Shown here piece by piece: positions 6,501 through 55,200 of a DNA stretch of 64,000 nucleotides. The stretch is from Sphaerolaimus hirsutus. Its lineage: Eukaryota > Nematoda > Chromadorea > Monhysterida > Sphaerolaimidae. The notes under the pieces are model-generated. The model saw only the letters and a list, made by a program, of their open reading frames with translations. It was not told where the DNA came from and made no database searches. The position numbers were made by a program, and so were the translations under genes. The stretch spans positions 6,080,529-6,144,528 of the forward strand of contig OZ038451.1 in the NCBI GenBank assembly GCA_964036195.1. The letters are read 5' to 3'. How positions within the stretch are numbered: position 1 is the stretch's first letter; each line of letters starts with the position of its first letter.

Positions 6501-9500
6501 CCAAGGATATTGGTTTACAGGGACCGATCCGCTGAAAATACAACGCGTGGGGAAGAAATTGCGCGCTTGCCTACAAAATTTTTAAGAAACATCGAAAAAT
6601 ATACAGGAAAAGTTGCATTATCCGGGACTTTTTAGATCTCACCCCGGGAAGGGGGGGCTGCAGCCCCCCCCCCGCCCCCCCTGGATATGTCCTGGAGTTA
6701 GATGAATTTTCATGACGTCTCCCTGTCAAAAACTTCTTTATAACGTCTTTTTTTAACTTCCGTTATACACATCTTTGCAGATAAAATTTAACGCGGCCCA
6801 CAAAATCACAAATGCCTCGGTGATAGTAGTCCGGTGCTTCAACAAATCAAAGCCAGCAAATTACACAGCTGAATATTTCAACACAGACATTGTGCACGAC
6901 AGTGTGTATTATCAGATTTTGCCACTGAAAAACGTGGTGAAAGTGAACCATAGAAACATGAATATCAACATAATGGAATTTGACAGCGTTTCATTTAATC
7001 AATTCCGCCGGTGTCTTGCACAAAATTGGTGTTGATGTTTTTTTGAAAGAAAAAGAATGATCGAACAACAGACATATTCAGTCAGATCTGTTCGCACTTT
7101 CATTTAAAAATGCTGGTCCAATGTACCAGAATGTGCTGGTGAATACCAGAAATAACCTTTTCCGGTAGCGACAAGTTTTTAATGGTAGCGACCTTTTTAA
7201 AATGAAATTTTACCAGGAATTTTGCGTGGCATCGCGCGGCAGCTGGCATAGTTCATTTTACACACAAAAACATCTTATGCCAATTTCCTGCAAAACACCG
7301 CATCCTGACATATGACCAAATCGTGGAAATACATGACTGAAGTTCTGGGTTTCGATTGGCTAGAAGGGTTGGTCCCACTTTAAATTTCAAAAATATCAAA
7401 AATCCAATTACTGTAAATATATTCTTGAATAACCCCTCCCCATGTTGGTTCAGCTGAGCATAATAATAATTTATAACCTACCCTTGAAAAATACCTTTCC
7501 TGAATCTTGTCTTCCCTGGTCCATCTATTCAGAAAGGCATTTTGTGCAGTTGATTCCTTAGGTTTTTGTATCATAGGTGTTGATTTGGTTCAATTTAAGG
7601 TGGTGGTAGGATATTTTGTAAATTTTTTTACTCGAAAATGTATATCTACTTTCAAAAGTCACACGGGAAAATATTATCATACTTATGTAAACAACTGTGG
7701 CAAAGACTCTGAATTTTGGGACCCATTCTAGAAAATATGGTAGCTCAAAACTCAATACTAATGCATTATTTAAAAATCACAGCTACCACAAAGTGGCGGA
7801 CAACAGCGCAGTGAATGCAGTGCCCGCAATGGCTGGGCTGCGATTGAGAAACCAAACCAATGAAATGTTGAACGAGGTGCCGCGCTACCCGGACTTCGTG
7901 GAGCTGAACGAGATGGACTGGCTGTGGAAATATTTGCTTAAAAGTGAGCCTGTATGATACTTGAGGCGTCCAATTCTTAAAGTCGACAAGTCCAAATGAT
8001 CAACATTTCGTGTTAGGCCCGGAAACGTCATCTGGGGCTACTTCCGCACATTTTTCATTATGTTCAATAAATTTTTGACCTCACATGACATGCCCATATA
8101 TTATAGTGTCAAAGTTGACATTTTTGGGGACAAATGCAAAAAAAATTGGGCAGGAAGTCGACAAGTCCACTCAGTTTTGGGCTAAACGTAAAAAAGTCCA
8201 CCCATCTCCTTTTTTATTGGGAAAAAAGCAAGAAATGTGATGAGTCCACTGTGGAAACTGATTTCTAAAAGTCGTCAAGTCCATAATTTTCCCATAAGCT
8301 TCATCACCACCAGCACCAGGAACAAAAATGTTCTCGTGCGCAAGAAGTCGACAAGTCCATTTCCCTCCTCAAAACAGGTTTACTCTGACTGAATGGAATT
8401 TTATGGACAATACACCCCATTTTTCACATATAGGTCGAGAGCAGGGGCTGAAAATTTGAGACTTTGTTGTCAACATATGGAACTTAATGGAAAGCATGAG
8501 AGAGCCTAATTGGACACGCACCACGGGCCTGGAATTGGGTCAGAAGCTTAAAATGCGATTTACTCAAAATCACATTTTGTGGACTTGTCAACTTTTAAAA
8601 TGAGACGCTTCACTTGTTGAAGTTGAAGTTTGACACTAATTCTGTGGATTTCGCCCCACCAACTCGCAGACTGCGCCACATTGTGGAATGATGACATTGA
8701 TCACACAGAGGGTTTATTCAATTACCATGTTGGGATGCGAGGTTTTACAGAAAACATGTTCACGCATTTCACATGGCCATGGCATAAATATAACAAAAAT
8801 CATTTGTATGATGATAACGTGGACAGACATTGTGTGAAAAGTGAGTTTTTGTACACGTTTTCTGCTATTTTCCATTATATTGATCAAAAACCTTAACAAT
8901 AACCACAGACAAACACTATGCGCCCCAACTTTTTTCCATCACTGAGCGTTTTCTGCACCAATTCAAAAACAACTGTCACTTTTCATTCAGCACATTGTCA
9001 GAAACTACACATAACTACCCATACAGGTATTGCTAATTTTCTGACATTTTAATTGATTTTTTTATGCAAAAATTTCCAAACAACAGACTGTCAACGCTGG
9101 ATGAATTTTTGTACAAAATGCTGGTTAATTTGCATAATGCTGGCCTGTTCAAAGATTCTGCGCTGATCATTCTGGGTGACCATGGCAACAGAATTGCTAC
9201 TATTCGAAACAACTATATTGGTAGGTGTCGTCATACCTTAAATACCACCATATAACCTTGATTAAATCATCACCAGGGTGGGATGTATCCAGGATTTTCT
9301 CATGGGGTGTGATTTTGTACTTGGTTGATGGACATACATGCCCCCTAAAATTTTACCATTCCAATTACTAAATTATATAGTTTTATAAAGAACAAAGCAA
9401 GAACCTGGTTAAGTGAAAAGATGCGAAAAATCCTTGGAAGAGTCACGTGGTGCACTCCCTCAGCACCTCCAAGCCTGTACCCTGTTTCGACCCTTTTCAG

Positions 9501-20838: not shown

Positions 20839-20844
20839 CCGGAA

Positions 20845-24956: not shown

Positions 24957-24974
24957 ACCCTGCTCGCTGCGCCA
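24957..24974 (-). promoter_or_regulatory. BEL/Pao primer-binding site
   Basis: On the coding strand the bases directly after the 5' LTR read TGGCGCAGCGAGCAGGGT, starting with TGG to pair a tRNA CCA end. The sequence is consistent with the 3' end of a eukaryotic tRNA-Ser of the UGA/CGA type (from memory of the family; not searched). Confidence 0.65.
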
Positions 24975-31283: not shown

Positions 31284-34200
31284 GTGCCAGAACTTTGGCG
31301 CCAAGGCATTTTGTTCCTGGCGCCCGTCAAAAAGAGCACCAAGCGCCAAAAACGCTATGGTGCTTTACATGGGCTTTGATATCCAGGGCTTTGATTATAT
31401 TGGATATCCCTCACACCTCTACTTAACGCAGCAGTCAGCAAAGTCTACAAAACCAGGAATCTCATTGCTTTGATTTTGTCATTGTGCTTGGTTGTCTTCG
31501 TTCTGCTGCAAATTGGGTACATTGATCGAAGACAAAACACACTAATGACCGGTGGTAACGAGTTGGTGCTGTCGAAAAGTCAGGTGGGTGCTAAAGCGGG
31601 AATTAGAGCTCAGCGTCGATTCGACGTGAAATGATGACGTGAAATGACGTCGTGAAATTAATTACACGAGTGTGGATCATGCTACGGGTCTACAATTTTC
31701 TAAGGATAATATATGAATCAATACCTTAATCGTGTCTAGTGATGGAAAAGCGCCATGGCGCTGGCGCCTGGCGCTAGCGCCAAAGCAAAAAGCGCCATGG
31801 CGCTTTTGGCGCTTGGCGCTAAAACGCTCTGGCGCCATTGGCGCTTGGCGCTGGGGTCTGAGAAAGCGCCATGGCGCTTTTGGCGCTTGGCGCCATTTTC
31901 TGGTGGCGCTATTGGCGCCTGGCGCCGGCATTTTAAATGGCGCCAAAAAAGCGCCAACCATGATAATAAAAAAATTGTTATAATATGGTGAAATCGACAC
32001 TGCAGTTGATCAATTTTGAAGCAACTGAATAAATATTGATTAATATTAGGGTAGACTTTATATAAATAGATACATACATTGAATAAAAGCAGAGGTGTTA
32101 AAATCGTGATAAATCCCCTTTTGTGCTTTGCTCCTATTTCTTTCTTGCAGTCTAAATCAGGGGTTCAGTCTGGCGTGGGTTGGAGGGGGGGGGGGGTTAC
32201 CTCCCCAACAAATGCTCCAGCTATCTATCTATTCCCAGGCCACTCAGCTACCTATCTATCTAACCTGAGGCTAAATTTTAGGGTACTATTTATCCCTCGA
32301 GCCCCCCACCCCCCACCGCAAATCGACCAGATATGTAAATAGATCTCCAGAGCGATTATTTGGGAAATTTTGCCCTGATTTAGTGGTTGTTTGAATGGGC
32401 AAAAATGTTCAATAGACTACTATGACTTCAGCGGTACGTCACTCACAGTTATGCACTCATTTTTCTACCATCAAATTGTTGAACAATTTTTTTGGCGCTG
32501 GCGCTATTGGCGCTTGGCGCCATTACCCTCTGGCGCCATTGGCGCTTGGCGCTGAGGTTCAGAAAAGCGCCATGGCGCTTTTGGCGCTTGGCGCCATTTT
32601 GCTCTGGCGCCATTGGCGCTTGGCGCCGGGGTCAGAAAAGCACCATGGCGCTTTTGGCGCTTGGCGCCGAAAGCCTGGCGCTTTTTCCATCACTAATCGT
32701 GTCCAATACTGAGTGTTATCAGCCACAACTAGAGCAAATTGAAAAATTCAATTTTTATCATTCCACGTCATCATTTTACGTCAGGGAACAACTTGACATT
32801 TCACGTCAGACTATTGCAAGCAGCAGTCTGACGTGAAATGTCAAGTTGTTCCCTGACACTGTGACGTGAAATGATGATGACGTGAAATGATAAAAATTGA
32901 ATTTTTCAATTCGCTCTAGTTGTGGCTGATAACACTCAGTATTGGACACGATTAAGGTATTGATTCATATATTATCCTTAGAAAATTGTAGACCCGTAGC
33001 ATGATCCACACTCGTGTAATTAATTTCACGACGTCATTTCACGTCGTCATTTCACGTCGAATCGACGCTGAGCTCTAATTCCGGCTTTACTGTGACAATT
33101 GACACTGTTGACATTTGAACAGTCAAAAGACTCTGTCAACCCCCTATCCACAACCCCCCGCGCACCCACTCTAAATACAACACCAACCCCCTCCCCCAAC
33201 ACCCCCCCCCATTTTTCCTGGCGCTTTTCAATCAATAATCACTACTTGCAGCGAGAGTTGTTAAAGGTACTATGAATTAATAACCCCCCCCCCCCTCGAA
33301 ATACCCCCCAATTGAGTGTAAATAGAACCTCAATGACAAAAGCTGCGGTTCATGACCCATGCAATGCATAACACACGTTAAAACAATGATTGTGTTACGT
33401 TAGTATAGTACACGGTCTACGTACTTTTTGAGTAAATCGCAATTTAGGTTTCAGACCCAATTCCAGGCCCGTGGTGCGTGTCCAATTTGGTTCTCTCATG
33501 CTTTCCATAAAGTTCCATATGTTGACAATAAAGTGTCAAATTTTCAGCCCCTGTGTAGGTAGAAATATGGCTAGCCAATCATGCGTAAAAACGTAACGAC
33601 AATTTTGTGCAGACACTCCGACGACTCGAGGACGACCATATGTGACTGAATGACGGCCCGCGGTGCACAGGGAAGTCACAGTGAACGTGCGGTTCGCTGT
33701 GCACTGCAAACCCGCCAACGAAGCCGCAGCCCCAGGACGGTACGCCCGAATGGACACTACTGCGGCCATGATTTTATTAAATATTTTCCTTTCCATTAAT
33801 TACGTAATTACTTCCCGTGTGATGTTAATTTTTCATTTTACGTTTTATTAATTAAGCTAATTAGGTTACCCGCATTTTAAGTTAATTAAGTGATTATTTT
33901 CGTTTTTTTAAATGCATTTCCCAATATGTACTTTCGAATGGTATAATTTTTAGGTTTTTATCATTTTACATTTTTGTCAAAAGGGTGCAGTGTCTGGGAA
34001 TGGGTTAGAAAAGCTTTTATGTTTCTTGTTAAGCTAAAAGGTGTTGACTCGGTTAAACGCCTAGACGTCCCAATAGATAACATTCAGAAAATTCCCCGAC
34101 CAAGTGCATTTTTTATTTAGGACTAGGTAATGGGTGGAAAAGTGGCAAACGGCAATTATTGTCGGCATGCGACTGCAAGACACATGCAGAGCACAGTTTA

Positions 34201-37200
34201 CAGTGAAGAGCACAGCTGTGCCAACTAATTATTCCCATCACCCAGGGTGATTGGTGAACTCGCAAGTGCTAGTGTCTTGTGGCGTGTGTTCAGGCCCGAA
34301 GTTCCAACCCTTACCCGGCAATGCAATAACCTTGAACAACCCCCGCAAATGAGCGTTCTTTCTGTGGCCTTGGTCGGGCGCGCTATAAAATATTTTCACC
34401 TAAAGGGGCGCAGGTTGATAACACGTGTCACACCACCTGCTCTAGGCTGTACCGTAACCTCTGAATAGAAACCCAGTTCCTGACACTCACCTACGAGATA
34501 ATTTGTATTTTAATTACGTCAGTGATAATCACAGTTACTTCACGCTTGGTTTAATTCACGTTTGCACCCGTTTATTTAATTAGTTATTTTTCCCGCATTT
34601 AATTAAATTACTTGTGCCTTGTACGCTATGTTAACGGTTTTCCAGTGATCATTGATTTCGTCTTATAATTCGCTCATTATGGTTAATTGTTGTGTCTCAG
34701 ATTTAGTATTCTTTCCTCTTATGGTAGATTTTTTGGTGATTATAAAACGCGCTGATTTTACATTTTTTCACCCACTAGAGGCTATACGACTCACTTGAGC
34801 TATTGTGAAATTGACTCTGACTATATTGCTAAATAAAGTTCCCGTGAATCCAACTTGGTCCCCCTGAAGCATACTAACTGCTTTTTAATTTGAATTTTAT
34901 TAATTACGGCTTTACTTTAACTACGGCTTATTAACAATTAATCGAAGTAAACCGCCGGCTGCAGTTACGAAAGGGATTGGTAAGTTGCCGTGTCCGTCCT
35001 CAGGAACTGTCAGGACCCCAAGGGGTACTGGCGCCGTTCCTGATTTGCGTGTAAAATCCCCGTACCATAAAAACAATCATTTTTTTAATTACGCACGCAA
35101 TTAGAAGCGCAAAGGGACCGGAATTTACAATTCTCCGCCGCGGCAAAATTCGACGAGTGACGTATTTTTGTGGTAAAAACGGAAACTAGTAAAATTAGTA
35201 AAAACGTAAAATATCTGACAACTGGTAGCGTAGCGAGTGGTTTCCTAAGCAAGCCATAAAGTTTTCTGTCTGGGGCGCCTGATCAACGCCTCTACAAAAA
35301 ACGGCTTCACGGATAACGAATCACCCCAAAGGGAATTGAGATCGAGGGGGCCAGCAAGCTTACAAGGGGACACTATAGAACAAGTTTGGCACGCTGCGTT
35401 GGAGAAGCAAAAACAAGCACGAAGGCGCGCGCGACAACAGAAGGCTGGGCAAGAAGTGGACGCACAACTTGCTGCAGCTGAGAGTCAAGCAGAAGACAGT
35501 GAGTCGAACGATTCGGTTAACCCTGAAACAGACGCGCCGGAAGCGCTAGAGGAGAGTGAAAGTCAACGCTGGTCTGGACAGACAGCTGAGGATACACCGG
35601 TAATCAGGTTATCAACGGTTGAAGGCGCAGGGCCCGCGCCAGACAGTTTTAGTCAGTGGAAAACGCCAGCTGTACCGGCAGCGGCACGGCAGCTAACGTC
35701 CAGCGCAGAAGCAGAAGAAGCGCCTGGGACAAGTAGACAAGCTGCAGGAAAGGAAGCAGGAAAGACAGGTAAGTTGTCTAAGCTTCGGAGGACATTGGGT
35801 TGGAGCGCGGGCAGCTCATCCATATCGCCTGGAGTGCGATCAGGTTCTGAAGTCGGTTCAGACGGATACGTTGGTGACAGCGAGCCTCTAGGGCAGCCGT
35901 CGATTCAACGTGATTATCCTTTGATTGCAGCTGAGCTTGGAGCTACTGCAGATCAATTTCCCGTGATTGAAAATACCGTAGCGGAATTATTGGAGACAGC
36001 GGCGCAGAGTGGAGACACTTCCCCGGCGCTGCAGTTAAGCCCACCGAAGAGCACTTCGACGCCGAGAGACGTGTCAGGCAACAGCAGTCGGAACTTATCG
36101 AGCGACCAGTCGAGATCGCAGAGCGCAACTGCAAAGGCTAGATGCCAGTTAATTAAGACTGAAATTTCAAGTAATCCCCCCGTGATAATTATTAGCAGCC
36201 CCGCAAGCAGAATGACAAACAATGGCGCGAACCAGACGGCGGCCCCGGCGCTGGAAGACAGATACGCAAATGTCACTAATGTGAATTTAATTTACCAAGC
36301 TACCATAATGGACCTGGACCCGGTGCAAACAACGCCATCCTGTGCACAATGGACACCCAAAAAGGCATGTGAAGCTGCAAAGAAATGGGCAAACATGATG
36401 AGTCAGGCGAGACCGGTTGGTGCATTCTCACAGAATGGTGAAGCAGGGGACTTGCATATGGTGGCACTAATTAAAACTGCTATGAATTTATGGGGAAGTG
36501 ACCCAGTCAACGAGGTACCTAGGGTGGAACATTATTTGAGGGAATTCGAAGCGCACCACAGCTTACATGGCGATGATATAGTTGATCTGGCGACTGCGTA
36601 CCAGCAGCATAATCAAGCCCTACAAAATCAGAACGCGACGCTGGGAGGAAATTCGCCGGCCAGTGGTCAGCAGCCAATAGTGCTGACCAATGGTCAAGCA
36701 GCGCCCTTGCAATCATCGACGGCACCAGCGGCGCCCCCGTCGGCAGCTGGAACAAACCAGGTGAGAACTGTTTCGCAGCGACGCGCTCGATCCCGCTCGC
36801 CGGCGTCTTCAAGAAGCTCGTCAGCTACGTCCGAAGTGGCAAGGCCCACGGACCCGGGACAAAACTGGCAATTAGAACAAAGCAATGCGGCAGTCATTAC
36901 AGCCCTAGCACAACAATGTGGATATTTTCGCGGCAAACCAAATGAGGGTTTCAGGGACTGGAGAAGAAGCTGGGACACAGTATGTGACGCGCTGCGCATA
37001 AAATTACAGGAGCGGAAGCCGCTGGTAAAATTGTTTTTGAAAGGCAGCGCCAGAGCCATTTTCAACACGCGATACAGAGAATTGCGCGACCTGAACTACA
37101 AGGATATGATGCAGGCACTGGAGAAGTTCTATGAAAATCCAAATGATAAGCATCATGCGCAGAAGGAGATCTTCGAGACGCGACAGGGCGCAGATGAGTC

Positions 37201-40200
37201 AGTACTGGAATGGGCGGTACGTTTGGAAAAATTGATAAAACGCGCCTATCCAGGCATGGGTCATGAAAAACGAGGTGACACATGCATGATAAAATTCCAT
37301 GGAGGACTGAGGAATGAAATTCGGCGCAATGTACCTGTCACGGCTTCTATCACATGGAAAGAAATGGTTGACAACGCGCGTGCTCAGGAGAGCTTTTTGG
37401 AAGCAGAACAGAGCCAGAATAAGGGAGAAAAATCTAAACAGGATGTGGTTGCCAGCGCGACCGACAAGGTAATGGACAGGTTGATGGCGCTAAACATGCC
37501 CGCCATGGCTGGACTGCCGTCCCAGGCCGACAAGACGTTAGAGACAATGGAACAGAAAATGACTGAGAGTGTTGCCAAATTTGACTCGGTGCACCAAGAG
37601 ATAGCGAAGAAATTAGCGCAACTGGGCGCGTTGGAAGGTAAACTTTTGGGATTGAATAGGGACCCCCCTAAATTGCCCCCACGCAAATTTGACAAAGGAT
37701 GTTGGGAATGTGGCTCTGAAGAGCACATCAGATATGAGTGTCCCAAACTCACCCCAGAACAAAGGGAACAGTATTTCAAAAGGAGCCGCGGCGGCGGAAC
37801 ATCCAGAGGAAATGGACGTGGGCGCGGCGGAGGACAACGTGGCGGCTATCAGAGAAATGACCAAGCCCAAGCGATGCAGCCAGGTATGATGCCCATGCAA
37901 TATGCATATCCGCAGTGGCAACCAGCTCAGCCGATGCCTGTGCAGCCAGCGCAGACGGTACAGAGGGCTGGTGATATGAACATGCAACCGCAGATGATGG
38001 CATATCAAACGCCGCCAGCTAATTGGATGGCTATGGGACCGGATGGGCGCATGCAACAATATAACATGCAACCAGTACAGGTAAGTAACCCCCACGTAGA
38101 GTCGCTGAACCCCACACGAGTGACCAGTACGACTGGAATGACCATGCATGTGCGCGAAGATGATGGCTGCATGATGATACGTCCCGTTAATAAGTTAATC
38201 CCTGTGATGCAAGGCTTGGAATTAGAGGCAGAGGAACCTGACGAACTGGTTCCAGAGTCACCCAAAGAACAGCAGCGCACTACGGGAATGCATGTGCTCG
38301 CGCAAGAGCGGGAATTCTGGATCAAACCATGGGCATACATGCGAACTGAAAAAGGTTACTTGTTTCGAACTACCTGGCTGGCCTTTTTACGCAGGATTGG
38401 AATGCATGATTTGAGAGAAACGGACTGTACGTTGTGGCCTAATTGCCCCGCGGACGACCACTCGGACACGCTGACTGAGGTGCCCTTGGACGTGCTCATG
38501 AACATCAGTCTGGACCCGTTTTTGTACGCCACGCCGGCCGCTCTGCCGCCGCGCACTGGATCCAGCAACCAGATAGACAGGTATATGGGCTTTCTGTCTA
38601 CTGAGGAAGGGGTGCGCCCCGCGCCGCGCGCGTACTCAGAACCCCCCTACATGCCCCAGGTCGCACAGTCGCTGTTTTTTGTATTGGCAGTTGGGTTGAT
38701 TATAATGGGATTAGCTTTATTACCGGGTGCGGGTGCGACTACCATGCCCTCGTTTCCATTGTTATGCAGTGACTTGACGGATCACTACGATTTATACACG
38801 TACCCCCCCCCTACCAAATTGCACGGCTATTGTAGACACTACGGCGTCATTAGAACGGCCTCGAAAATTGACACTGACAATCTACAAACGAAACATGGTA
38901 GAATATCGTGCGGCAGCGCACAGGTGTGTGGCCTCTACCAGAACGGCAAGGACGTATCAGAACTTCTGGGGCGACGTCACGCTGGAAAAGTTTGATTCTA
39001 ACCCCCGATCTGTGGGCGCCGCCGAGTGCGAAGGCATGATTAAATATCATAAATGCAATAATGGACCTATGACCCCTGTGAGTGATTTGGACAACGCATG
39101 GGACACTCAATACCCCACCAATGTTAGCTACTCAGGACATGGATTGTACTGTTGCAAATGGGTGAGTGAAACGACGCCACACTGTGGGCTGTTTCGCGGG
39201 GAAGTACGAATGAGATATGGAGCCAACACCATGCAAAGCACGCTGGGTGAGGTCAGCAAGTGCAATTATGAAATGGGTGCATGTACGCTAGAAGACGGCA
39301 GCCAATTAACATGGAAACCGAACCCGAAGGCGGAATGCCCATATGAAAAATGGCGTGAAATGCCTGGACGCATTAGACAGGACATCTGGCTAGCCGATGA
39401 TCATACGCTATCATTGTCTTTCAGAGCACATGAAGAGGTTGAATCATGCGGCATCAAATTATGGAAATTGGATCAGGATATTGTAGTGGCGCCATTTGAA
39501 AAGGCAGTGATTCGAAGCGTCAGACAAAAACGAGCGCAAGGTCGACCCACACTAGGGATAGTGAGCGCAGGCCAATTGGCGGCCAGCATGCAGGCGGTAT
39601 ACGAAACAGCCGAACAAACCATGCGTGCACAGGCCGTAGCCACCTGCAAGAATGTGCAACATTTCCAAGAATTTGTGCGCCTGGCTATGAGCGAACACGC
39701 TACTACGACAGCCCGCTGGTACATGAATGATAATGAAATAATTGCTAAACCTGCGCCAGACGGATTTTTGGTTCACAAATGTTTTGCGGTAAAAACATAC
39801 AAGATCATGAAAGAGGAAAAGTCTCCAGAATGCTATGAAACAGTACCTGTGCAAGTTAGCGTGCATGGGCAAAATGTGACGTTACACATGAATAGGTTGA
39901 CAAACATTTTGCACTTTCAAGCGATCCCGGGATCATGCACTAATGCGCACAATCGTGTGGTAATGTTAAATGGACAGTGGTACAAATATCTACCAGAAGT
40001 AGGCGGCCTGGAACACTTACCTATGTATAACACACACAGTTTCCCGCAGAAATGGCAACAGGAAAAGGTTAAGGATGTGCATCATCAGATTTTTGCCGCC
40101 ACGACCATGTACAACTTGTCAGAATTATTGCCAACGACCACCCTAAATGACGTATGGCATGCATATTCAATCGTGCGGCAAATTACGCAGGGGGCGGAGC

Positions 40201-43200
40201 CGAAGGTGGAATCACACATGCAGAGGCATCGAACCTTGGCAAAATCGGTATTGGCACTGGGATGGTGGGATTTTGACACCTGGCGCACCTGGCTACAAGT
40301 ATGGATTTACCTGATATGTGCACTAGTCACCATGCAGTATTTACTAGCCGCGCTCATGGCTGCAGCGCCGGAAATGGCCGTGACTTTGGTGAACCGGGCA
40401 AAGGAAAAAATCAAACGACCAAAGACAGAAGAAAAATCCAATATCATCGTCGAACTGGCTGAGGACCGCCCTAGCGAACAGGTAAAGGTAAGAACGGTAA
40501 TTAACCCGTGCGTGGGAATGCCAAGTGGCATGCCCACACTCACGGGCGCGCGTCGTTTTCCCGCTATACAATACAGTATCAACAGAAAATGCGATCTGGA
40601 AGAAGAATCGGTATGCATGATCACTTTCTCGACGGAAGAAAGAGATAACATACATCAGGTAGCCAATCGACGTGAAGAGATCGTGCATGTGTATTACAGC
40701 CCATCCATTACCATAACCATCGATGGGAGAGAATATCGGAGATGTCTACTGGACACAGGCGCCATGCGTTCATTATGCAACAGAGACGTGCTGATGCGAC
40801 ACAAGGAAAAGGCTACTAAGCATGATGAAGTTTCACCTATTGGAGCCCTCAGGTGTGCAGCAGATTCGAAACTTTTGGTATTGGGACAGATGGAAGTACC
40901 GGTAACGATGGGAAACCACACCTTCGGGATTGTGTTTCAGGCGGTGAACGGATTAGCTGGTGAAATTTTAATTGGCGCAGACGTCTTACGGCACATGGTA
41001 GTAGACCTACCTGCAAGGGAACTACGAATCCCTACGGCTAACGCGATTATTCCCTTTGATAACCCAGACCCGGAAGTGCAGCAGCGCAGAATTTACGCTA
41101 TTGTGAACGAAAAAATAGAAATTCTGGCTAGACATGAAGCGCTAGTGACGGCAAAATTATCTGCCCCCATGGATGAAAAGTTATTTACGGTCATGGGATT
41201 GGATACGGTAGGCGAACGCTGTGGCGTTATGGCTGCTTCAGCGGCCTATGAAACTAGTGCCCCTGTGTTTCAGGTGAGATGTGCAAATGTACGAAATCAG
41301 CCCGTGGTGCTACAGGTAGGACAGCGCATTGCGGTGGTCGAACCAGTGGATTGCGTGCTGAAAGTGAAACCTGGAGACCCCCCCGCTGAATGGGTGAAGC
41401 AGTGTTATGACAGAGATGTGTGTCGACAAGTTCAAGCGACTGAACCTCCCCCCAAAGTAGCAGAAGACAAATTAGGACCCCCACTGCAAGTTGCATGCCC
41501 AGATGGACACGTGATGGAATTCACCGTGCCAGAAACTTTGACGGACGAACGCAGAGAGGAACTGAAAAAGGTGATTTTGCAGTACAAAGAAGCTTTTGCC
41601 CGACATAAGTATGACATCGGCTACAGCGAATTAGTGGACTACCGGCTGCAATTAGTGGACAAAAAACCAATTGCATGTAGAATGTACCGGTTGAGTCTGG
41701 ATGATCAGCAATACTTAGAAAATCATTTGAGATGCCTCATCGAGCACGACATCGTGGAACCCAGTACGAGCCCGTATTGTGCCCCCACGCTGGTGGTATC
41801 CAAACCGGATGGAGCAAAGCGGATGGTAATTGATTACAGACGCCTGAACGCTGTTTTGCACGCTCCCCTATTCCCATTACCCCGCTTAGATGAAACAGTC
41901 GAATCTTTATGTAGCTGCAAGTATTTTTAGCAGTGCCGACATAAATCAAGCTTTCTATAACATTGCTTTGCATCCAGATGATCGACACATTACGTCATTT
42001 AGAAATATTTTTGGACAATTTCAACTGAAACGTTTACCAATGGGATTAAAATGCTCACCTAGTTTAGCGCAGCGCTGTTTTGAATTAGCTATGGCCGGCT
42101 TAATACATTGAAATGTGTTATTATACATCGACGATTTACTGATTTATAGTGCAACCTGGGAAACACATTTATACGACATAGGGCAGGTGTTGGAAAGATT
42201 AATTAGAAATAATTTCAAAATTAGTCCAAAAAAGTGTTTTTTCGCACGCGTCACAGCTGTACGTTTTCTAGGATTCATGATTGGCCGTGACGGCGTGTGC
42301 GTACCGGATGATAAACGCCACATAATTCAGGACTGGCCGGTACCCACTACCGTAAAAGAAGTTAAGGGTTTTCTGGGAGCTATAGGGTTTTTTAGACGCA
42401 TGATTCACAGATGCGCAGAGTTAGCTGTACCTTTGTCAAATCTCACGCGTACGGGACCAAGAGAAAATTACAATAGCGACACCCCGGTGGATTTGACAGC
42501 GAAACCCAAAGCACTGGAAGCTTTTCATAAGCTCAAGGAAGCATTGTTAGGAAGCCCATGTTTGCAATTTCCCGATCCTAAACGTATGTTTATAATTATC
42601 ACGGACGCCTCTAAAATTGCTGTTGCAGGAGTGCTAGCACAACGAGCAGAGGACGAAAAAATACTACATGCATGTGCCTTTTACAGCCGGAAGTTAGGTG
42701 CAACCCAAAGCAAATGGCCAGCGATTTCACTGGAAGCATGTGCAATCTACGAAAGTATACGTAATTGGCATTGTTATCTGGCGGGACGGCCCTTTGAAGT
42801 CTGGACTGACGCCAAGAGTATTTCGTGGGTAAAGAATCCTAATTTAGAGACTACCCCGCACGCCATGCTACACAAGTTCGCTTTAGCGATTACGCCGTAC
42901 CAAATCACGTTCAAGCATTTGAGGGGAAAAAGCAACGAATTAGCAGATGCATTATCTAGAAGACAAGACGCGCCAGTGGTATTCGATGAGAAAAAGGACC
43001 TGGATGAGGCTTTTGAGCAGTTCGCACAAGTTACGTGCCGTGAAATCGCTATCCCGCACGATAAGCAGGTTACGGTAGCTGCGGCGAGCAGGGCAGCGTA
43101 CCAGCCAATCAGCGAACGAAGCGGCGTAAACGAGGAGGCGGAGTTACTGCGACCAATCAGCGACCGGACGCGCGGGCGAAAAGAGGCGGAGTCACCCGGG

Positions 43201-46200
43201 CTGCGAGAGCGGCAGCGGAATGCGGAAGCGCCTGGAACCGGAACAATGGCTGGTGGTTCAGGAGCCGGAAATGAAGTTGTTCCGGGTTTAACGAGTGTAA
43301 CCAAGCGCAGTACAATCATGGCGCTACCTCCCATGACTTCGGTGGACAAGTTGAAGCGGCTACAAGCAGAAGAACTGTACATAGCCACAACTATAGAAGT
43401 GTGTCGCGCAGATAATTTTTACAGCGCCGCGCCGTATTTTATTGATCAATACGGTTTATTACGCCGACAAGCGGGAACGTCCCAGATACCAGGTGTACAA
43501 TTATACGACCCAGTGTGTATCCCATCGGAATTAGTTCCATTCGTGTTAGAATTAGCTCACAATCACCCCACGGCGGGCCATTTAGGAATAATAAAAACAT
43601 TTGAAAGATTACAGGAATTCGCGTGGTTTCCAGGAATGCGGCCAGAAAGTGCGCGCTGGGTTGCTACTTGCCCTTCGTGCAACGCCAAGAAAGGTCTCAG
43701 AGCGGCAATGCGAACTCAAATGGTGTGCCGCCAGGTAGCCAAAAGGCCAGGTGATGTGATAGCAGTAGACGCAATAGGACCTTTACTAACCACGAAACGC
43801 AGAAACCGACATGTGTTAGTGTTTGTTGATCAGTGCACACGTTTTGGAATTGCTGTGCCTGTTCCCGACATAAAACAAGACACAGTATCATTTGCATTTT
43901 TGTTGCACATTTTGCCTATATTTAGTGTGCCGGCCGTTATACTCAGTGATAACGCCCCTAGCTTTACTGAGGGCACTTTTGCCAAGCTTTTACAATATTT
44001 GAACGCGACCCAACACACATCATTTGCATACACCCCCAAGAGCAACGGAATGGTGGAACGTAGGAATGGTGTTCTGATGGAAATAGTATCTCACTACGTA
44101 AATCGTACACATGACGATTGGGACATACATTTAGGTGCCGCTGTACATGCGTACAATACATCGAAACACCCTTCCTTGCAAACCACCCCCTATGCGTTGC
44201 TATTTGGCAAGCCTGCTGCGTCCATGTGGGAGCGTATGATCGAGCCTCCCCCTGACACTGAGGCATTGCCCTCATTGCCGCATAAGCGCGCTCTTATAAA
44301 TGAATTAGGCGCGCGTCTGACCACAGCACGCGAAGCGGCGCACACCGCTTTAGCAAAAGCGCAGCAAAAGGAGCAATTTTATGCCAATCGCCGGGCACGT
44401 CGATTGAATGTGCAACGCGGGCAAGCGGTACGCGTGTACACGCCGCGTATTACTCAGTTGACGGGCCCTAGTAAGAAATTCGCGCCTCGCTTTATCGGTC
44501 CGTATGAGTGCATTGATTATGCCCACCCATTAGTGACTTTGTTCAACAATATTAATAGGAAAATATACGTAGTTCATGCAGATCATTGCAAAGCAACCAG
44601 TGAATACTTAATTCCCCCTTCTTACAGTGAATTATACGGCGACGACTAAAATTGATTAATTAGCCGTTACGACCATCGCCGTCGCGTCAAACAACACGGA
44701 ACCAGGTATAACAGGTGTGATGTGTGTGTGAAAGTGTGTGGTTTTTTTTTTGGAAGCTCGTGCACCCCTTTTGCCCACGTGTGTAACATTATCGTAAAAT
44801 GTAAAAACCTATAATATTTAAGTTGACGTTCTTATGTTCTCTTTTATATTTTATTAATTCAACTTATCAAGATTTCATTCATATTTACATTCCAATTTTA
44901 ACATCTTCACATTCGCCATTTAATATCTCAAGCGAAGTTGTTTACAACGTGCGCTTCACATCGCTCACATATTTAGATCTTAGTCATTGCTCACATTCCG
45001 CCACATTTCCTTGACAAGCAGCACGCAAATACGCCGTCATGTTTATGTTAAGCGGCGGGCCCGCCCCGAGTGGGGGGCCGGGCCCGCGCGTCATTTCAAA
45101 AGCTGTCTGGCTTGTCTCACATTTTCACTATCTTGTCAGTTTAGCTCGCTTTTCATCGGAGAAGCGAGCGGGCAAGGATTGAACTTTCACAATTGGAAAT
45201 GTTGGGTAAAAATCGGAGATTAGAGCCGACCGATTGGCGCCAAACCAATCGCCATCGGTCTGGCCCTTAAAAGCCGATTTCACAGCTAAAATCGGCAGTG
45301 TTTGCAACCTCGTCAACTTCACACGAATCTCTTCCTAGGATCTAAATAAGCGCCGTAGTCACTTTATTAAGTCGCTTGTTTTTGGTGCTAAAAGTCACCT
45401 CAGTGCTTTGTTTCACACCCGCGCTGTTTGAGGTGCTTTATTCACAACCGCGCCACTTAATTGTCGCCTTTTGTCGTAATTAAGTGCCTTCTTTAAATTG
45501 CCTTATTTCTCCGGTAATTAGAGCTTCTTTTACGTTTTAATTAAGTAATTAATTTAGTTGTAAATTAATTCCTTTGTTTACGTATAATTTTATATATATT
45601 TTATTTACACTTATTTCTTTGTATTTAATTGTCTAAATAAAAACGTTCGTCAAAACCTTTGGTAAACAATCTAAATTTGCTTCACACTAACTCACGTCAA
45701 TTCACTTCAACTCAACTAATCACATTTGATAAAATAACGGAACGTCAACTAGAGACGACGCTTCACGTCAACTTACATACGTTCACATTTGTCCTCTTCC
45801 TCGGTTAGGAATAGGAGCTGGTTCACAAGTCACTTCAACAAGTTCCGCATTATTTTACACCACGGGCAACTGGACCGCACGAGTTTTTATTGCTTTCCCC
45901 GTTCATTAAACTTTCGCAACTTAATTATTTTTATCACATTGTTATATTTATAATGGCTTCGGCCTCTCGCAAATGCCCATTTGAAGGTGCAGACGCCCCG
46001 CCCATCAAATCCAAGGAGACAAATACACATGGTGCCTGCGGCGGTGGAACCATCCCCCCGCGACAACTTTACCGCGCGCAGCAGATGCAAAATGGACCGG
46101 AAATCTACCCCAGCAGAGGGAAATTTGAAGGTTGGGTAGATCGAGTGTATATTGACTCGGGCGCTGACGGGCATGTTGAGTATCAGTGTCATGTGAGAAT

Positions 46201-49200
46201 TTCGGAGCAAACGATGGCGATACTCAGCGAAAACGAGCAGTGGGTAAATGCGGATGAGGCCTATCCGTATTTTTATTATTCAAATAAGCGGGCCAAGGCG
46301 GCTAGAGACAAAAGGACCACCCAGCTGGTGGATTTGTGCGCAAAAATTCAGAAACAACACCCCTCGATGTTTTTGCCCCTGGTGCGCCACGGAATGCGTT
46401 TTTCGGCGACCGCGATCGCACAGAAAATAGAAAACCCGAGGTACTGGGAGTTCACCGGCGTCGCGATATGGGGTAATCAGACGAAATGCCCCTTAAATGT
46501 TGCCGCCCCAGTGGTAGTGAGTACGCAGGGCACGCGGCGCGTCACTCAAGCGGCACGTACGTTGACGCGTGGCGACACTTCCGGCTACCAGCCCTATACG
46601 AGCGACTGGAAAACGGCGCGGCTGCGAACGGCCTTCACGCCGTCGAATTACAAAAATCTGGAACCGCTGGGCGCGGCGGAGCGGGGCGATGCCGGGCCGG
46701 AAAAGTTGGTCATTTTGCACAGAGAGTATGTGAGTGACAGCAGAGTGGAAAATTTGAGTGCTGGACAGTTGGGGCTGGCCCACGTCGAATATCACGACCT
46801 GAACGATTTGGACGTGTTCGGCGACGAATTTTACGGCCATGCGTACGGGCTGCAGGTTGCCATGGCTGAGGACATCAGCACAACGGGCATCCAGCCGGAC
46901 ACAGAGAACCGAGATAACATGGACGCATTTCTCAGGTATAAATTGAGTATTTTAGCAGCGGCCCACTGCTATAACGAGTCATTTTTGCGGTTTCGGGCGA
47001 AACGCGCAACGGATGTGTGCGCACATGTGTTCTGGGAGCACACGCCGCAGGGCACTGCATGCGACATTATGGTGCGCCGCCCGGACCCAGAAGAATTACA
47101 AGCTGACACTTTTGAAGGACCGGAAGAGCAGCGCGTTTGTTTGCTGGAGCAGGTGAATACGCAGACACAGCTGTTGAACCAGGCGACGCCCATGTCAGTG
47201 TTGAGCTTGGTGCTGGCCAGACAAGACGAAGACAAACCAGTGGCGGGCAGCCCCAACCTATCAGTCAGAATTACCAGTGTGGAATCAGAGCCAACCACTA
47301 CAATGCTGCGTGCGAAATTGGACATGGCGGCGTCGCAGTCAGCACTGCCCCGTACTCTGGAGAGTGGAAGATACATGGTGCGCGGCTCAAACGACTCGCC
47401 TAATTATGACCGAACCATGCGGTCACTGCAAGCAGCCCTGAACAAAGCGCCGGTCGGCTGGGTGCCAAAAGTGGTTCAGGGGTCAAAAGTACTCACCCTG
47501 GAGGCGCAAATCCAATTAGCGGTGATATTGAATTTGCGTCTGCTGGATGATGAAACTGACTGGGCGTTAATTAGCCGCGAGGCTAATGAGCTGTACGAAT
47601 CATTGTTCAGGGGAAAAAATGAACAAATGATTCAGGCCAAATTAGGTGAGTTTTTGCCGCAACAGGGACAGGTAGAAGTTTTGGGAGCTGTGATCACAGC
47701 CGTACGAATGCGCAAACCCCTTTTGATTATGTGTGACTCGCCTTTCGGGTCCGGGAAGACAACCACACAAAATCAACTGGCGTATGTGTGTTCACGCGGC
47801 TATAATTATTATAACTCGAGACCCAGGGTGCGCGCGGGCTCCGACTTGCCATCGGACAAGCAGCCGAACGCCAAATACCATTCGACGCTCATCACGTGCA
47901 CGGTCAACTCAGCGGCCGACGAAGGCGCGCGCAGGGCCCTGACCAATCTGAATAAATTAGGGCAGCGGGATATTTTTGGGGCTTTGGAAGTTTTGTTGCG
48001 GGAGCGCGCGAAATGGACCGCTATGGCCGATACGCCATTTTCTGAAATGCAAAAACTGGAGGGTTTTGAAGAATTTTTGAAATTAAGAGCGGCGTTCCCG
48101 GTGCGCGTTTTGAGCCCCATGTGGGAAACTGACCCCACTTATAGTACCAATTGCCAACCCTGCACACCCTAGCACAGCGAACCGGCCACAACATCGTCCG
48201 CCTCAGCCCCGAATGGACGGCAGTGCTGGAAAAGTACGACGGCGCCAAGAAGGACTACGAGCTGGTGGACGAAATTATCAACAACTGCACGGACGACGCC
48301 GTTATACGCGCGCAGCTGACCGAACAGGTGCCATTTCTCACCGCCGAAGATGGAGACGAACAGCCATTCGATGACTTCGAGGCAGGCGTGGCGGGCGCCC
48401 GGGCTGGTGAGGCTAGTTTAGCTGACCAGGGGTTTTGGGGTAAGGTGCTGCGTAGGGCGCTGTCTAAATATGTCAGGGCTAAGGTCAGGCTGCACCGGGT
48501 GTTCTTGGAAGTGGTGCAGCCCGGTCAAATCCATGTCACTTTAGACTCCGCCCATGACGCCCGTATAAAAAGTGTGACTGCGTGTGCGGTAATTGTTGAC
48601 GAAGCGTCTCTGGCATCTGACGCTGCCGTAATTAGCGTGGTTCAGGCGGCTCAGCTCCCAGTGAACGGCATGCTACTTCTATTTGGAGACAGTAAACAAT
48701 TGACGCGTATGATTCGCGTGCAAGACTGGGTGGAGCCCGTCCTGAAACCCGACCCCACCCTCATTGATAGGCTCACACAATATCAACTATGTCCCGTGGT
48801 TCACTTGGAAACAGTGTTCCGCGGGCATCGCCAGCTGATTCAGGCTAACTCGGTGGCGGCGTACAACGGACTGCTACGCGCCTACAACGACACAGCAGCG
48901 CACGGCGCCACCATGTTGCCCTCGCCTGGCGACTTCGAGGACGGCGTCATGCTGTCATCGACGTTGGTGCACCAGGGCTGCGAATCGAAAGAGGGCATGT
49001 CCATTATCAACAAGAAGGAACTGCGCATCATCCTGCACCTGTACGACTACCTCGTGGCCACGGTGAAGGAAGATCCCACCCTACCCTGGGCAGATCTCAC
49101 AGATCCCGCTAGTTTGCTAATTGTGTGCTTTTATGCGGCGCAGGCGCGCGCCCTAATCAGTCGACTAGTAGCCCATACAGAACACGACGCGGCTTACTGG

Positions 49201-52200
49201 GCCACCCGCGTAATTACTGCCGACAAAGCACAGGCCCGTGAAGCGGAAGTGGTCATCATTTCCTGCGTGCGCGGCAGCCCGCCAACCGACTCCGCCCAGC
49301 TGGATGCCGATCCCAAGAAGGCGTACGGTAGAGTTGGATTTGTAGCGGAGTTGCCCCGGGGAAACGTAGCCACCTCCCGCGCCAAATGTGTGCGCATCGT
49401 GGTGGCCAATGCCGAGACCATGTTGTGGTCAACCTTTTTCCACCGGTTTCTGACGGTCGAGCACAAAGCCGATCGAATTTACTCTTACGAATCGGGCCAA
49501 ATCTGGGGAAACGTGCTGGGATTTTGGCCACCGGAATGGCGCCCGCAGGCTGACTTGAAAGAACTAGTCGGACCGGATAGATACCCGGCCCTTGAAGAAG
49601 AACTGCAGGCGGAAGTTTTATCCGATATTGAAACCGCCTCCTCAGGCTCTGACTCCTCTGCAGACGCGCGGGAGGAAGTTGTGCCGGTGGTGGAGGAGGT
49701 AGTGCCCGTTGTCGAGCCAGTTTACCGCCCTAATGAAGAATATTCCCCCATTAGCAACGACATGGCGGCCATGGCACTGCAGAACGCAGCCGAGCCCCCC
49801 TCGCCGCCGCCCGAGCACCACGACGCGGTCGAGGCCATCCCACTGCCACCGGAGGAAGCCCCAGCGCAACAGGTAGAACACGACATGGTAAATGGTAATT
49901 GTGAAAATTGATACGAAACAATTTTTGGTAAAAACCAGTCATAATAATTTTGAGGTGTAATAATTCATGCACAACTTTTTGTCATCAGGAGAAACAGACA
50001 ACTTTGTAACAAAAAACCAGCAATCAGAAACATACTTGTTAGTATTCCATGAAAACAATTAGAAAATCTTGTCGGCGATCAATTTTCACACGCACGGACT
50101 GCGACATGTCGGTCGAGCAGGTAATTTGAATGTTGACCCCAAACTGCCCGTCCAACAGCGGCACGAGACTGTGAAGTGACACTAATTAGTAATCTACATA
50201 ATTAGTTCCCAAAAAATCAAAAAAGAAAAACTTTTTCTCACATCGAGCCCTGAGCGGGAACCAAAATTTCGAAGTTTCGAGCACAAAAAGCCGGCACGGC
50301 AGAAAGCTGATGCCATAATTCAAATGAAGACGAGCCATATTTGCACCCCCAGGGCATGTGACTGCCACGGCCGTCCACCGAAAAATGCAGAGAAGGCATG
50401 ATTTTTGAATAATCAAAAAACGGTGCAAAACACTTTTTCTGAACATGTCGTTTTTAGCCCGGAGGTAAAAAATTAATGGCTGGTGGGATTGTAGGTAGAA
50501 ATATGGCTAGCCAATCATGCGTAAAAACGTAACGACAATTTTGTGCAGACACTCCGACGACTCAAGGACGACCATATGTGACTGAATGACGGCCCGCGGT
50601 GCACAGGGAAGTCACAGTGAACGTGCGGTTCGCTGTGCACTGCAAACCCGCCAACGAAGCCGCAGCCCCAGGACGGTACGCCCGAATGGACACTACTGCG
50701 GCCATGATTTTATTAAATATTTTCCTTTCCGTTAATTACGTAATTACTTCCAATGTGATGTTAATTTTTCATTTTACGTTTTATTAATTAAGCTAATTAG
50801 GTTACCCGCATTTTAAGTTAATTAAGTGATTATTTTCGTTTTTTTAAATGCATTTCCCAATATGTACTTTCGAATGGTATAATTTTTAGGTTTTTATCAT
50901 TTTACATTTTTGTCAAAAGGGTGCAGTGTCTGGGAATGGGTTAGAAAAGCTTTTATGTTTCTTGTTAAGCTAAAAGGTGTTGACTCGGTTAAACGCCTAG
51001 ACGTCCCAATAGATAACATTCAGAAAATTCCCCGACCAAGTGCATTTTTTATTTAGGACTAGGTAATGGGTGGAAAAGTGGCAAACGGCAATTATTGTTG
51101 GCATGCGACTGCAAGACACATGCAGAGCACAGTTTACAGTGAAGAGCACAGCTGTGCCAACTAATTATTCCCATCACTCAGGGTGATTGGTGAACTCGCA
51201 AGTGCTAGTGTCTTGTGGCGTGTGTTCAGGCCCGAAGTTCCAACCCTTACCCGGCAATGCAATAACCTTGAACAACCCCCGCAAATGAGCGTTCTTTCTG
51301 TGGCCTTGGTCGGGCGCGCTATAAAATATTTTCACCTAAAGGGGCGCAGGTTGATAACACGTGTCACACCACCTGCTCTAGGCTGTACCGTAACCTCTGA
51401 ATAGAAACCCAGTTCCTGACACTCACCTACGAGATAATTTGTATTTTAATTACGTCAGTGATAATCACAGTTACTTCACGCTTGGTTTAATTCACGTTTG
51501 CACCCGTTTATTTAATTAGTTATTTTTCCCGCATTTAATTAAATTACTTGTGCCTTGTACGCTATGTTAACGGTTTTCCAGTGATCATTGATTTCGTCTT
51601 ATAATTCGCTCATTACGGTTAATTGTTGTGTCTCAGATTTAGTATTCTTTCCTCTTATGGTAGATTTTTTGGTGATTATAAAATGCGCTGATTTTACATT
51701 TTTTCACCCACTAGAGGCTATACGACTCACTTGAGCTATTGTGAAATTGACTCTGACTATATTGCTAAATAAAGTTCCCGTGAATCCAACTTGGTCCCCC
51801 TGAAGCATACTAACTGCTTTTTAATTTGAATTTTATTAATTACGGCTTTACTTTAACTACGACTTATTAACAATTAATCGAAGTAAACCGCCGGCTGCAG
51901 TTACGAAAGGGATTGGTAAGTTGCCGTGTCCGTCCTCAGGAACTGTCAGGACCCCAAGGGGTACTGGCGCCGTTCCTGATTTGCGTGTAAAATCCCCGTA
52001 CCATAAAAACAATCATTTATTTAATTACGCACGCAATTAGAAGCGCAAAGGGACTGGAATTTACAATTCTCCGCCGCGGCAAAATTCGACGAGTGACGTA
52101 TTTTTGTGGTAAAAACGGAAACTAGTAAAATTAGTAAAAACGTAAAATATCTGACACCTGCTCTCAACGTATATGTGAAAAATGGGGGTGTCCATAAAAT

Positions 52201-55200
52201 TCACTTCGGTCAGAGCAAAACTGTTTCAGGGAGGGAAATGGACTTGTCGACTTCTTGCACGCGATAACATATTTGTTCCCAGGGAAGATGAGGATGCCTT
52301 ATGGGAAAATTATGGACTTGTCGCCTTTTAGAAATCGGTGTACACAGTGGACTTATCACATTTCTTGCGTTGTTTTCCCATAAAAAAGGATGCCGAGGAT
52401 GGACTTGTCGACTTTGAGCCCAAAACTAAATGGACTTGTCGACGTATTGCCCAATTTTTTTGCAAAAAATGTCAAATTTGGCACTTTGCCATATGGGCAT
52501 GTGAGGTCAAAAATTTATGGAAAATGATGAAAAATGTGCAGAAGTAGCCCCAGATGACGGTTCCGGGCCTCACTCGACATTTTCATATTTTGGACTTGTC
52601 GACTTTTAGAATTGGACGCCTCAGTTATAAGTGCATATAGGACTGATAGTTATAAGGAATATACGGATCCAATGTTGAAACTTTTCAGCAAAATGTGGCA
52701 ATTGAACCAGTTGCCATTGAGAATGTCAAATACCGGAAAATGCCAGCAAACATCACAGTGGCACCAGTACAAGGAAAAAAAGTCAACCACTCGCATCCAT
52801 TCCAAAACAGTTGCAAATATCCGCTGCTGCAGCCGAATGACCCAATGATAGGTAAAAGTGGCTTTTTAGTTGATAAAACCTTGGCACCATGCCAACTAAA
52901 GGAATAACCACTCACAGCTTATTGGAATGAAAACCCCAGAACAGTTTCATGTCGCAAACAACAGCCAGACTACAGTTCGTTCGACCCGGACACGGGCACA
53001 CTTTACCTGCACCCGGACATTCACGAAGCCGCCAAACCAGCTTTCTGCGCTTGGGGGGAATTCGACACTCAGTTCATGCCCAGGAATACAAATAATAGAT
53101 TGATTATGAAGGGAAACTGGACAATTGTGGGTTTCGTGAGAAAATTATGTCCTTTAGTTACAAGTAGTGATGGAATGGCGCCATGGCGCTCGCGCCCTTT
53201 AATGGCGCCAAAGGGCGCCAGCGCTATGGCGCCATTGGCGCTTGGCGCCCTTTTCTGTGGCGCCATTTGGCGCCTGCCGCCATTATTCCGAATGGCGCCA
53301 TGGCGCCGTTGACGCTTGGCGCCATTTTCGCTGGCGCCAATTTGGCGCCCGGCGCCATTGTTTTGGATGGCGCCAGAAATGGCGCCAAGATGCCGGGATG
53401 AATGATATATTTTTCCTTATTAAACTGCCTTATCTGCTGAATGATATCATTTCGGTGGTGTTTAACACATACACGTCTGTAATTTTTTGTTTGCATTACA
53501 AGTTGTGGCTCAAGTTGATAGTTTTCAACCACATAAACTGCAAATCTTCAAACATCCCCCACAATTAGAAAAATGTCAAAAAATTTTCTCAGCCCTTACA
53601 TCATTGATATTATAACCTATTGACAATGCACCGTATTACCTTGAAATACTCTCGGGGGTTCATTTTTGCCCAGGTTGCTCAGACCTGGGGCCAGTTCCGC
53701 AAGTAGACAAGTTAAGAGTTAAAAGTTAAGAGTTGAGTTAAAGGTTAAAAGTTGAGTCAAAAGTTGAGTTAAAAGTTAAGAGTTGAGTTAAAGGTTAAAA
53801 GTTGAGTCAAAAGTTGAGTTAAAAGTTAAGAGTTGAGTTAAAGGTTAAAAGTTGAGTCAAAAGTTGAGTTAAAAGTTAAGAGTTGAGTTAAAGGTTAAAA
53901 GTTGAGTCAAAAGTTGAGTTAAAAGTTAAGAGTTGAGTTAAAGGTTAAAAGTTGAGTCAAAAGTTGAGTTAAATGTTAAGAGTTGAGTTAAAGGTTAAAG
54001 ATGAGTTAAAAGTTGATTTAAAAGACAAATGGGTCATTCGTTGCAGAAACGCGATACGCTGATCTTCAATCATATTTTGTCCCCGCACGGCCATTTCGAA
54101 ACAACGTTCGGCGATTTTTTCTTTTTTTAGCGATAATTTTTTTGGATACGTTATTTTCAAATGACGTGCATACAACATTGGCACCATGCCAGCGAACAGC
54201 CGTATCGATACCAATTTCATATTTTTATTTTTTTATATTTTTTTACCTTCATTTTCCACTTGTCTCTTAACTCTTAACTCAACTCTTAACTCAACTTTTA
54301 ACTCTTAACTCAACTTTTAACCTTTAACTCAACTCTTAACCTTTAACTCAACTTTTAACTTTTCTCTTAAATTTTAACTTTTCTCTTAAACTTTAACTTT
54401 TCTCTTAAACTTTAACTTTACTCTTAACTCGCCATTTGTCTTTTTACTCAACTCTTAACTTTTAACTCTTAACTTGTCCACTTGCGGAACCGGCACCTGG
54501 GTGTATTTTGAGGGTTGTTATCTGAGGAAACACAGTAGTTTGCCGTAGGAAGGGGTGGGAGCGTAGTTGCTATATGTATCTGCTTCTACCGTATCTGCTT
54601 GAATAATTCCTTTCTGCAATGATTTTTTGTCAGACATTTTTGAGGGGGGGGGGGGAATTATTCAAGCAAATGGTATACGCATCTCTGTTATTGTTGAGAT
54701 TTACTGCATCTGACTGTAAAAATTAGTATGTTACATGCAATGAATAGATACCTAATATAATTTCATAAATTTCCTGGCGAAATACTCGAATAAGTCCCCT
54801 TGAATCAACCCCCTCAAAATTTTCTGACAAAATAATAAACCCTCTGGGGTTTCTCCATGAAGTATTGTTCATAATATTCATTTTAAGGCGAGTTTTGTGG
54901 CCTGAATCACCATCAGCAAAGTGGTATAGCACGCCATTGTTTCTGGCGCCATTTGGCGCCCGGCGCCAATTTTTCAGATGGCGCTATGGCGCCATTGGCG
55001 CCTGGCACCATTTTCTCTGGCGCCCTTTGGCGCCCGGCGCCAATTTTTTGAATGGCGCCATTGGCGCCTGGCGCAATTTTTTCCTGGCGCTTTTCCATCA
55101 CTAGTTACAAGTTATTTATTTGTTTTGTTTGTAACTTCGAAATTTTAAGGTTTGGGTATTGGTATTTGGGTGTCAAAAAAATAGGGTTCCTGTTAGGGTA

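Follow-up and report, generated by a model that had tools for sequence, protein, structure and literature searches.

A helicase gene inside a Ty3/Gypsy-type element

The window analyzed here is a stretch of 64,000 nucleotides from the nematode Sphaerolaimus hirsutus (contig OZ038451.1, positions 6,080,529 to 6,144,528), and all coordinates below refer to it. It contains an element bounded by long terminal repeats (LTRs), which occupies positions 33554-52156 from LTR to LTR and encodes, in the 5' to 3' order, gag, a glycoprotein, an aspartyl protease (PR), reverse transcriptase (RT), RNase H (RH), integrase (IN) and a helicase. Judged by its encoded domains, the element is of the Ty3/Gypsy type, retrovirus-like and glycoprotein-bearing, and its third gene is predicted to encode a UPF1-like helicase of superfamily 1 (SF1; SF1B-type). 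The features of the locus are as follows.

7962..8569, minus strand: empty site, a paralogous repeat without the insertion (alignment of joined flanks)
33550..33553, unstranded: left target site duplication, CCTG (LTR-edge alignment)
33554..35220, plus strand: 5' LTR, 1667 bp, TG..CA (LTR-LTR alignment)
35249..38995, plus strand: gag, followed by a hydrophobic stretch beginning at 38648 and the first part of the glycoprotein (Retrotrans_gag, E-value 6.4e-6; weak CCHC knuckle, E 0.013)
38778..41930, plus strand: Monjiviricetes_fusion glycoprotein, hydrophobic stretch (40290), aspartyl protease and N-terminal part of RT (profile matches)
42112..44649, plus strand: RT (C-terminal part), then RNase H and integrase with H2C2 zinc and rve core (profile matches)
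44650..45952, plus strand: pol-helicase spacer, exceeding that of 50 of the 52 measured copies by about 1.06 kb (spacing measurement)
45953..48172, plus strand: helicase open reading frame (ORF), part 1, about 600 residues without a known domain followed by Walker A, GSGKTT (ORF, motifs)
48145..49911, plus strand: helicase ORF, part 2, motifs II, III, V, VI and AAA_12 (ORF, motifs, profile match)
50490..52156, plus strand: 3' LTR, 1667 bp, TG..CA (LTR-LTR alignment)
52157..52160, unstranded: right target site duplication, CCTG (LTR-edge alignment)

The 5' and 3' LTRs differ by 11 mismatches over 1667 bp, with no gaps. The joined flanks of the element match the empty-site repeat over their full 591 bases (84%, 614 aligned columns), and since this repeat corresponds to both flanks joined, with the element absent, the whole LTR-to-LTR block is one insertion. 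The initial annotation had placed the helicase between two matching LTRs with a target duplication, on the same strand as gag-pol, and the LTR alignment, the CCTG repeats and the empty site all bear this out. The plus strand between the LTRs encodes gag, a weakly matched protease, RT, RNase H and integrase. The PR-RT-RH-IN order characteristic of Ty3/Gypsy elements (Metaviridae) is present, with the protease matched at only E 0.03-0.06, as are TG..CA LTRs with a target duplication in the range of 4-6 bp. In the protein database pol has 111 matches at E 1e-20, all of them pol proteins with Gypsy-type domains and 24-39% identity. A TGG-starting stretch directly inside the 5' LTR (35224-35241) is a likely primer binding site.

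The genome searched (348 Mb, 762 contigs) contains the window with the element; the introns of its UPF1 gene and the presence of a BEL/Pao element in the window suggest an animal, and its COX1 match has 14 in-frame TGA. The lists of genomic matches comprise only the best-scoring candidates (54 of 2246 for pol, 44 of 2182 for the glycoprotein frame, 40 of 662 for the LTR, 74 of 491, 61 of 542 and 40 of 271 for the helicase, 150 of 454 for AAA_12), and the counts given below are lower bounds leaning to conserved copies. The helicase gene does lie at 45953..49911, as first annotated, but not as a single frame, being split over two frames in the window copy (45953-48172 and 48145-49911). It forms one long frame of 1327-1371 codons in 52 of the 61 copies of one list (one of them with an internal stop), and one long frame in 57 of the 74 copies of another.

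Intact copies contain Walker A, motif Ia (recognized by eye), II (DEAS), III (GDSKQL), V (QAREAE) and VI (NVATSRAK), numbered in the usual way; the strings GSGKTT, DEAS, GDSKQL, QAREAE and NVATSRAK had been reported for the window in this order, and are indeed found so. The AAA_12 profile (PF13087) matches part 2 of the window helicase with E 1.6e-25, which rejects a chance match of motifs, and a genomic copy, L020, with E 6.2e-25. The same copy matches the IGHMBP2-family helicase model TIGR00376 with E 4e-14, under the cut-off of this model, and PDB matches of the helicase include chains named "5'-3' RNA helicase-like protein", presumably Sen1 (E 2e-6), and UPF1 (E 0.014-0.063). Hence the assignment to UPF1-like helicases holds in the broad sense, by AAA_12 and the matches to Sen1, UPF1 and IGHMBP2.

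UPF1 proper carries an N-terminal Cys-His (CH) domain that binds decay partners. The element helicase has the SF1B core with AAA_12 that is expected of UPF1 proper, while a Pfam scan of helicase part 1 shows no match at all up to E 10, and that of L020 none to a CH domain; a very diverged domain could escape. The region before Walker A, about 600 residues or nearly half of the protein, contains no recognized domain; PDB matches to calicivirus 3C-like protease upstream of Walker A (E 0.8-0.9) are weak and are regarded as chance. A virga/tobamo-like viral helicase was rejected as well, since Viral_helicase1 stays under its cut-off (14.0-14.8 bits against 21, E 0.025-0.046) while AAA_12 dominates.

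Residence of the helicase in the family and selection on it

The helicase is a resident gene of the element and not a passenger. It is found downstream on the same strand in all 54 scored pol copies (in one of them at 15.6 kb), and the distance from the end of pol to AAA_12 is 3020-3052 nt in 50 of the 52 measurable copies, the window copy having 4111 nt and one other 15633 nt. Among the glycoprotein-frame copies, 43 of the 44 listed have the helicase downstream, and that of the 44th turned up in a later list. With the window LTR as query, 13 of 14 LTR pairs, matched by eye among the best 40 of 662 LTR matches, enclose the helicase; the pair without it in any list, on contig C1, has LTRs 11.2 kb apart, whereas eight others are spaced at 15.8-15.9 kb. 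The 30 helicase loci that were fetched, including that of the window, all continue into a common spacer and an LTR of 90-100% identity, and at least 157 distinct helicase loci are present in the genome. Of the best 150 of 454 AAA_12 matches that were scored, 148 are family-like by score and frame length (28 fetched and aligned), and the other two are host UPF1. The initial annotation had named full-length copies lacking the helicase as the sign of a passenger, and among the copies listed the co-occurrence with pol and with the LTR pairs ran the other way.

The excess of about 1.06 kb in the pol-helicase spacer is, at this size, peculiar to the window copy among the 52 measured, and the extra DNA in 44650-45952 shows no clear duplication that would mark it as an insertion. 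Three LTR pairs (C3:2412532-2442582, C143:53001-83122 and C6:4904229-4934078) are about 28.4 kb apart, the usual spacing being 15.9 kb; the recurrence of one size in three pairs points to a larger variant or to a nested insertion that has been duplicated.

The ratio of nonsynonymous to synonymous changes (dN/dS) across copies, which had been proposed as a check, was obtained on a tree of 48 unique copies and 883 codons, which are what is left of 58 loci after removal of 3 partial and 7 duplicate ones (9 copies have gaps or insertions relative to the reference and 9 have a stop). The helicase is under strong purifying selection along internal branches, with 39 nonsynonymous and 330 synonymous changes (dN/dS 0.037), while terminal branches have 290 nonsynonymous (10 of them stops) and 635 synonymous changes (dN/dS 0.144). 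Therefore, the descendants came from copies with a conserved helicase. The mean pairwise pN/pS, the corresponding ratio of proportions, is 0.064 (30 copies, 435 pairs). Four of the five motif strings have one single-copy variant each over the 48 copies, and QAREAE is invariant. Among the shared variants, synonymous ones outnumber nonsynonymous ones in all eight segments of the helicase; nonsynonymous ones are fewest in residues 755-864 of L020, inside AAA_12 (2 against 42 synonymous), and constraint is weakest in the C-terminal tail (15 against 28).

LTR-pair divergence is 0.6-0.7% both in the window copy (11/1667) and in a copy on contig C143 (10/1671 and 2 gaps), while helicase copies diverge by up to 18% at synonymous sites, so that both insertions are recent on the scale of the family. 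The two dated copies belong to a single close subfamily, with LTRs that are 98.2% identical to each other, and the dating covers that subfamily.

Reading frames and similar elements

Several frames are broken in the window copy, the gag-glycoprotein frame included. In 33 of the 44 listed copies gag, the glycoprotein, the protease and the N-terminal part of RT form a single frame of 2217-2228 codons (2 of the 33 have one internal stop), that is, a mononegavirus-like glycoprotein stands in frame between gag and protease. The Monjiviricetes_fusion domain, by which chuvirus and mononegavirus glycoproteins are recognized, is matched partially in the window copy (E 5.6e-7, residues 151-408, 28.3 bits against a cut-off of 27), and the glycoprotein is bounded by the hydrophobic stretches at 38648 and 40290. 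A glycoprotein-pol frame of 1051 codons (38778-38995 region) was observed in the window copy and 4 other listed copies, and a fifth has 1052; this shorter frame perhaps marks a subfamily.

The frame that runs from the C-terminal part of RT through RNase H to integrase has 919 codons in 45 of the 54 listed copies (6 of the 45 with one internal stop), 915 in 4, 887 in 2 and 845 in 3, and none of the 54 joins this part of RT to the upstream ORF in a single frame. At the two-frame junction of the window copy (41850-42120) RT can be read through without loss, and the split, judged by frame lengths, falls at the same place in the 54 listed copies. The simplest reading of these frame lengths is a candidate programmed frameshift inside RT, the window junction being the one that was read.

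Burro, a giant Gypsy-like element of planarians (PMC6431247), is among the closest parallels. It shares with the present element a CCHC Gag, a fusion glycoprotein encoded in frame after gag and ahead of the protease, Gypsy-like RT-RH-IN and large size; its glycoprotein matches those of mononegaviruses and was called the first such in-frame case between gag and pol. Burro additionally carries MATH, BIR, BCL2, ankyrin, SUMO-like, dUTPase and other motifs, with no SF1 helicase among the extra domains listed, while none of these motifs has a Pfam match in the window copy, which differs from Burro in having RT spread over two frames and the helicase as a third ORF.

Full-length SF1 helicases are likewise found in insect TRAS/Jockey long interspersed nuclear elements (LINEs) and in LTR fusions of Diptera and Hymenoptera (sections of PMC4686597, PMC5563155 and PMC6338049). 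In the LINEs they are virga/tobamo-like and belong to ORF2 or lie in or beside ORF1 (PMC4686597, PMC5563155, same sections), whereas the present helicase is of the AAA_12 type; in the insect LTR cases the helicase domain is reported to be translationally fused to element proteins (PMC6338049, same section), whereas here it is a separate ORF. Suppression of silencing is considered in these papers, as is, for the LINEs of the TRAS type, a possible part in quality control resembling that of UPF1. LTR elements of bdelloid rotifers also have an extra enzymatic ORF3, but in the portion of PMC5408684 covered it encodes a DEDDy exonuclease or a GDSL esterase, not a helicase. The cellular UPF1/Sen1/IGHMBP2 group of SF1B helicases shares AAA_12 and the motif set with the element helicase, which differs from it in the lack of a CH domain match, in very low similarity and in being borne by a retroelement. 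Searches of open-access literature listed no LTR element in which a UPF1-like helicase forms an ORF of its own.

Anakin, LTR elements with a chuvirus glycoprotein, shares the Monjiviricetes-type glycoprotein, but is Pao-type and not Gypsy-type (parts of PMC12440569 and PMC10084718). An Anakin-like BEL/Pao element lies in the window at 13728-26247 on the minus strand; its LTRs are 1273 bp long and differ by 2 mismatches, and it has a gag-like ORF with DUF1759 and a Pao peptidase. Its Monjiviricetes_fusion match is stronger (E 3.8e-16) and is located after the integrase region, behind pol; no helicase was found among its three ORFs scanned. Two unrelated LTR families within the window thus bear this glycoprotein. 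The region 53666-54500 contains a pair of oppositely oriented tandem arrays whose units resemble TTAACTC, with arms of up to 201 nt that are 80% complementary, and Rfam families have no match within the window.

Origin and possible role of the helicase

Host UPF1, recognized by its conserved sequence, is present with introns at two places in the genome (L043 and L044). Helicase part 2 gave zero tblastn matches at 1e-3 to their exons, and a recent copy of host UPF1 was rejected on this ground. Hence the initially suggested capture of a host UPF1-like helicase does not stand as a recent event, given also the missing CH domain match, while an old capture of some cellular UPF1-like gene is possible. 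The GC content of third codon positions (GC3) is 0.61-0.65 in the helicase, compared with 0.51 in gag, 0.50 in the glycoprotein and 0.45 in RT-IN, with PR-RT in between (0.58); this is compatible with a separate ancestry of the helicase, without proving it. Parts of the helicase, used as queries, have no relatives in the protein database among 7992 candidates scored at E 0.001 or among 7997 at E 1, scoring being confined in both cases to the candidates that share most words, although this database contains such elements, since the pol query returns 111 proteins from it; none were found in a viral-contig collection either.

Probably, the element needs the helicase for copying itself or for evading the host. 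The reading we favour, tentatively, is that the helicase acts on the element's own RNA or complementary DNA (cDNA). The protein would be an NTP-driven translocase on the element's own nucleic acid, moving, by analogy, in the 5' to 3' direction, and would strip proteins and structure off the genomic RNA or the RNA/cDNA hybrid, letting the RNA of about 16 kb undergo export, packaging or reverse transcription. It could be expressed from a spliced or subgenomic mRNA, or by reinitiation after pol. Several observations weigh against this reading. Selection signals a need for the helicase without telling which need; moreover, the copies sequenced were picked by their match to the window helicase or AAA_12, which favours conserved ones and makes the absolute dN/dS lean low. 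The helicase is a separate ORF outside Gag-Pol, a position that does not by itself speak for entry into particles. Finally, length alone does not demand a helicase, because among other LTR elements of at least 12 kb Cyclops and Ogre are reported to have the canonical ORF set, and for Burro no SF1 helicase is listed (PMC6431247, part covered).

Somewhat less likely, in our estimate, is a role in counter-defence, in which the helicase would be dispensable for copying and would shield the long multi-ORF RNA from nonsense-mediated decay, as a competitor of UPF1, or from silencing, by unwinding double-stranded RNA. The membership of the helicase in the UPF1-like group agrees with such a role, as does its position as a separate 3' ORF, the spot where LTR elements capture occasional ORFs (PMC6431247, part covered), and a LINE-encoded viral SF1 helicase is a weak suppressor of RNA silencing in plants (PMC6338049 and PMC5563155, sections covered). 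A polycistronic RNA with a stop ahead of later ORFs would, moreover, be an expected target of decay. On the other hand, the domain by which UPF1 binds its decay partners has no Pfam match here, and internal-branch dN/dS is as low as 0.037, whereas defence antagonists often evolve fast. Both roles rest on family resemblance; action on the element's own RNA or cDNA is preferred, with counter-defence close to it.

The other explanations are improbable, to different degrees. Loss of catalysis, with the protein serving RNA binding or structure, could be suspected from the undomained half ahead of Walker A, but is hardly expected where all five motif strings are retained save for single-copy variants. 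About equally improbable is a helicase of other origin (e.g. from a mobile element or virus) that entered one master copy and was amplified along with it, loosely integrated: its GC3, above that of gag, the glycoprotein and RT-IN and less so above PR-RT, may point to a different origin, and neither the protein database nor the viral contigs yielded a relative showing a long history shared with the element, while the constant orientation and distance after pol (50 of 52 copies), the continuity into the 3' LTR and the selection that maintained the gene after amplification speak against it. Such a scenario may describe the first arrival of the gene rather than its present state. A recently captured host gene carried as a passenger is the least plausible of all: the host does possess UPF1, but its exons gave no tblastn match at 1e-3, and the idea is rejected by the co-occurrence of the helicase with pol (54/54) and the LTR pairs (13/14) together with the strong purifying selection.

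In retroviruses and LTR elements nucleic acids are unwound by RT and host factors, and we know of no retrovirus or LTR element that requires a helicase of its own. The family described here might be, though we consider this doubtful as a whole, a retrovirus-like lineage that, like large RNA viruses, cannot do without an SF1B helicase of its own, has a fusion glycoprotein embedded in gag-pol and completes its RT only after a ribosomal frameshift. If true, a helicase would here count among the core genes of a reverse-transcribing element. A helicase selected through more than 100 insertions lets one test whether reverse-transcribing elements can require a helicase, and also whether UPF1-like enzymes are used by genome parasites for the copying of long RNA or for the evasion of RNA decay.

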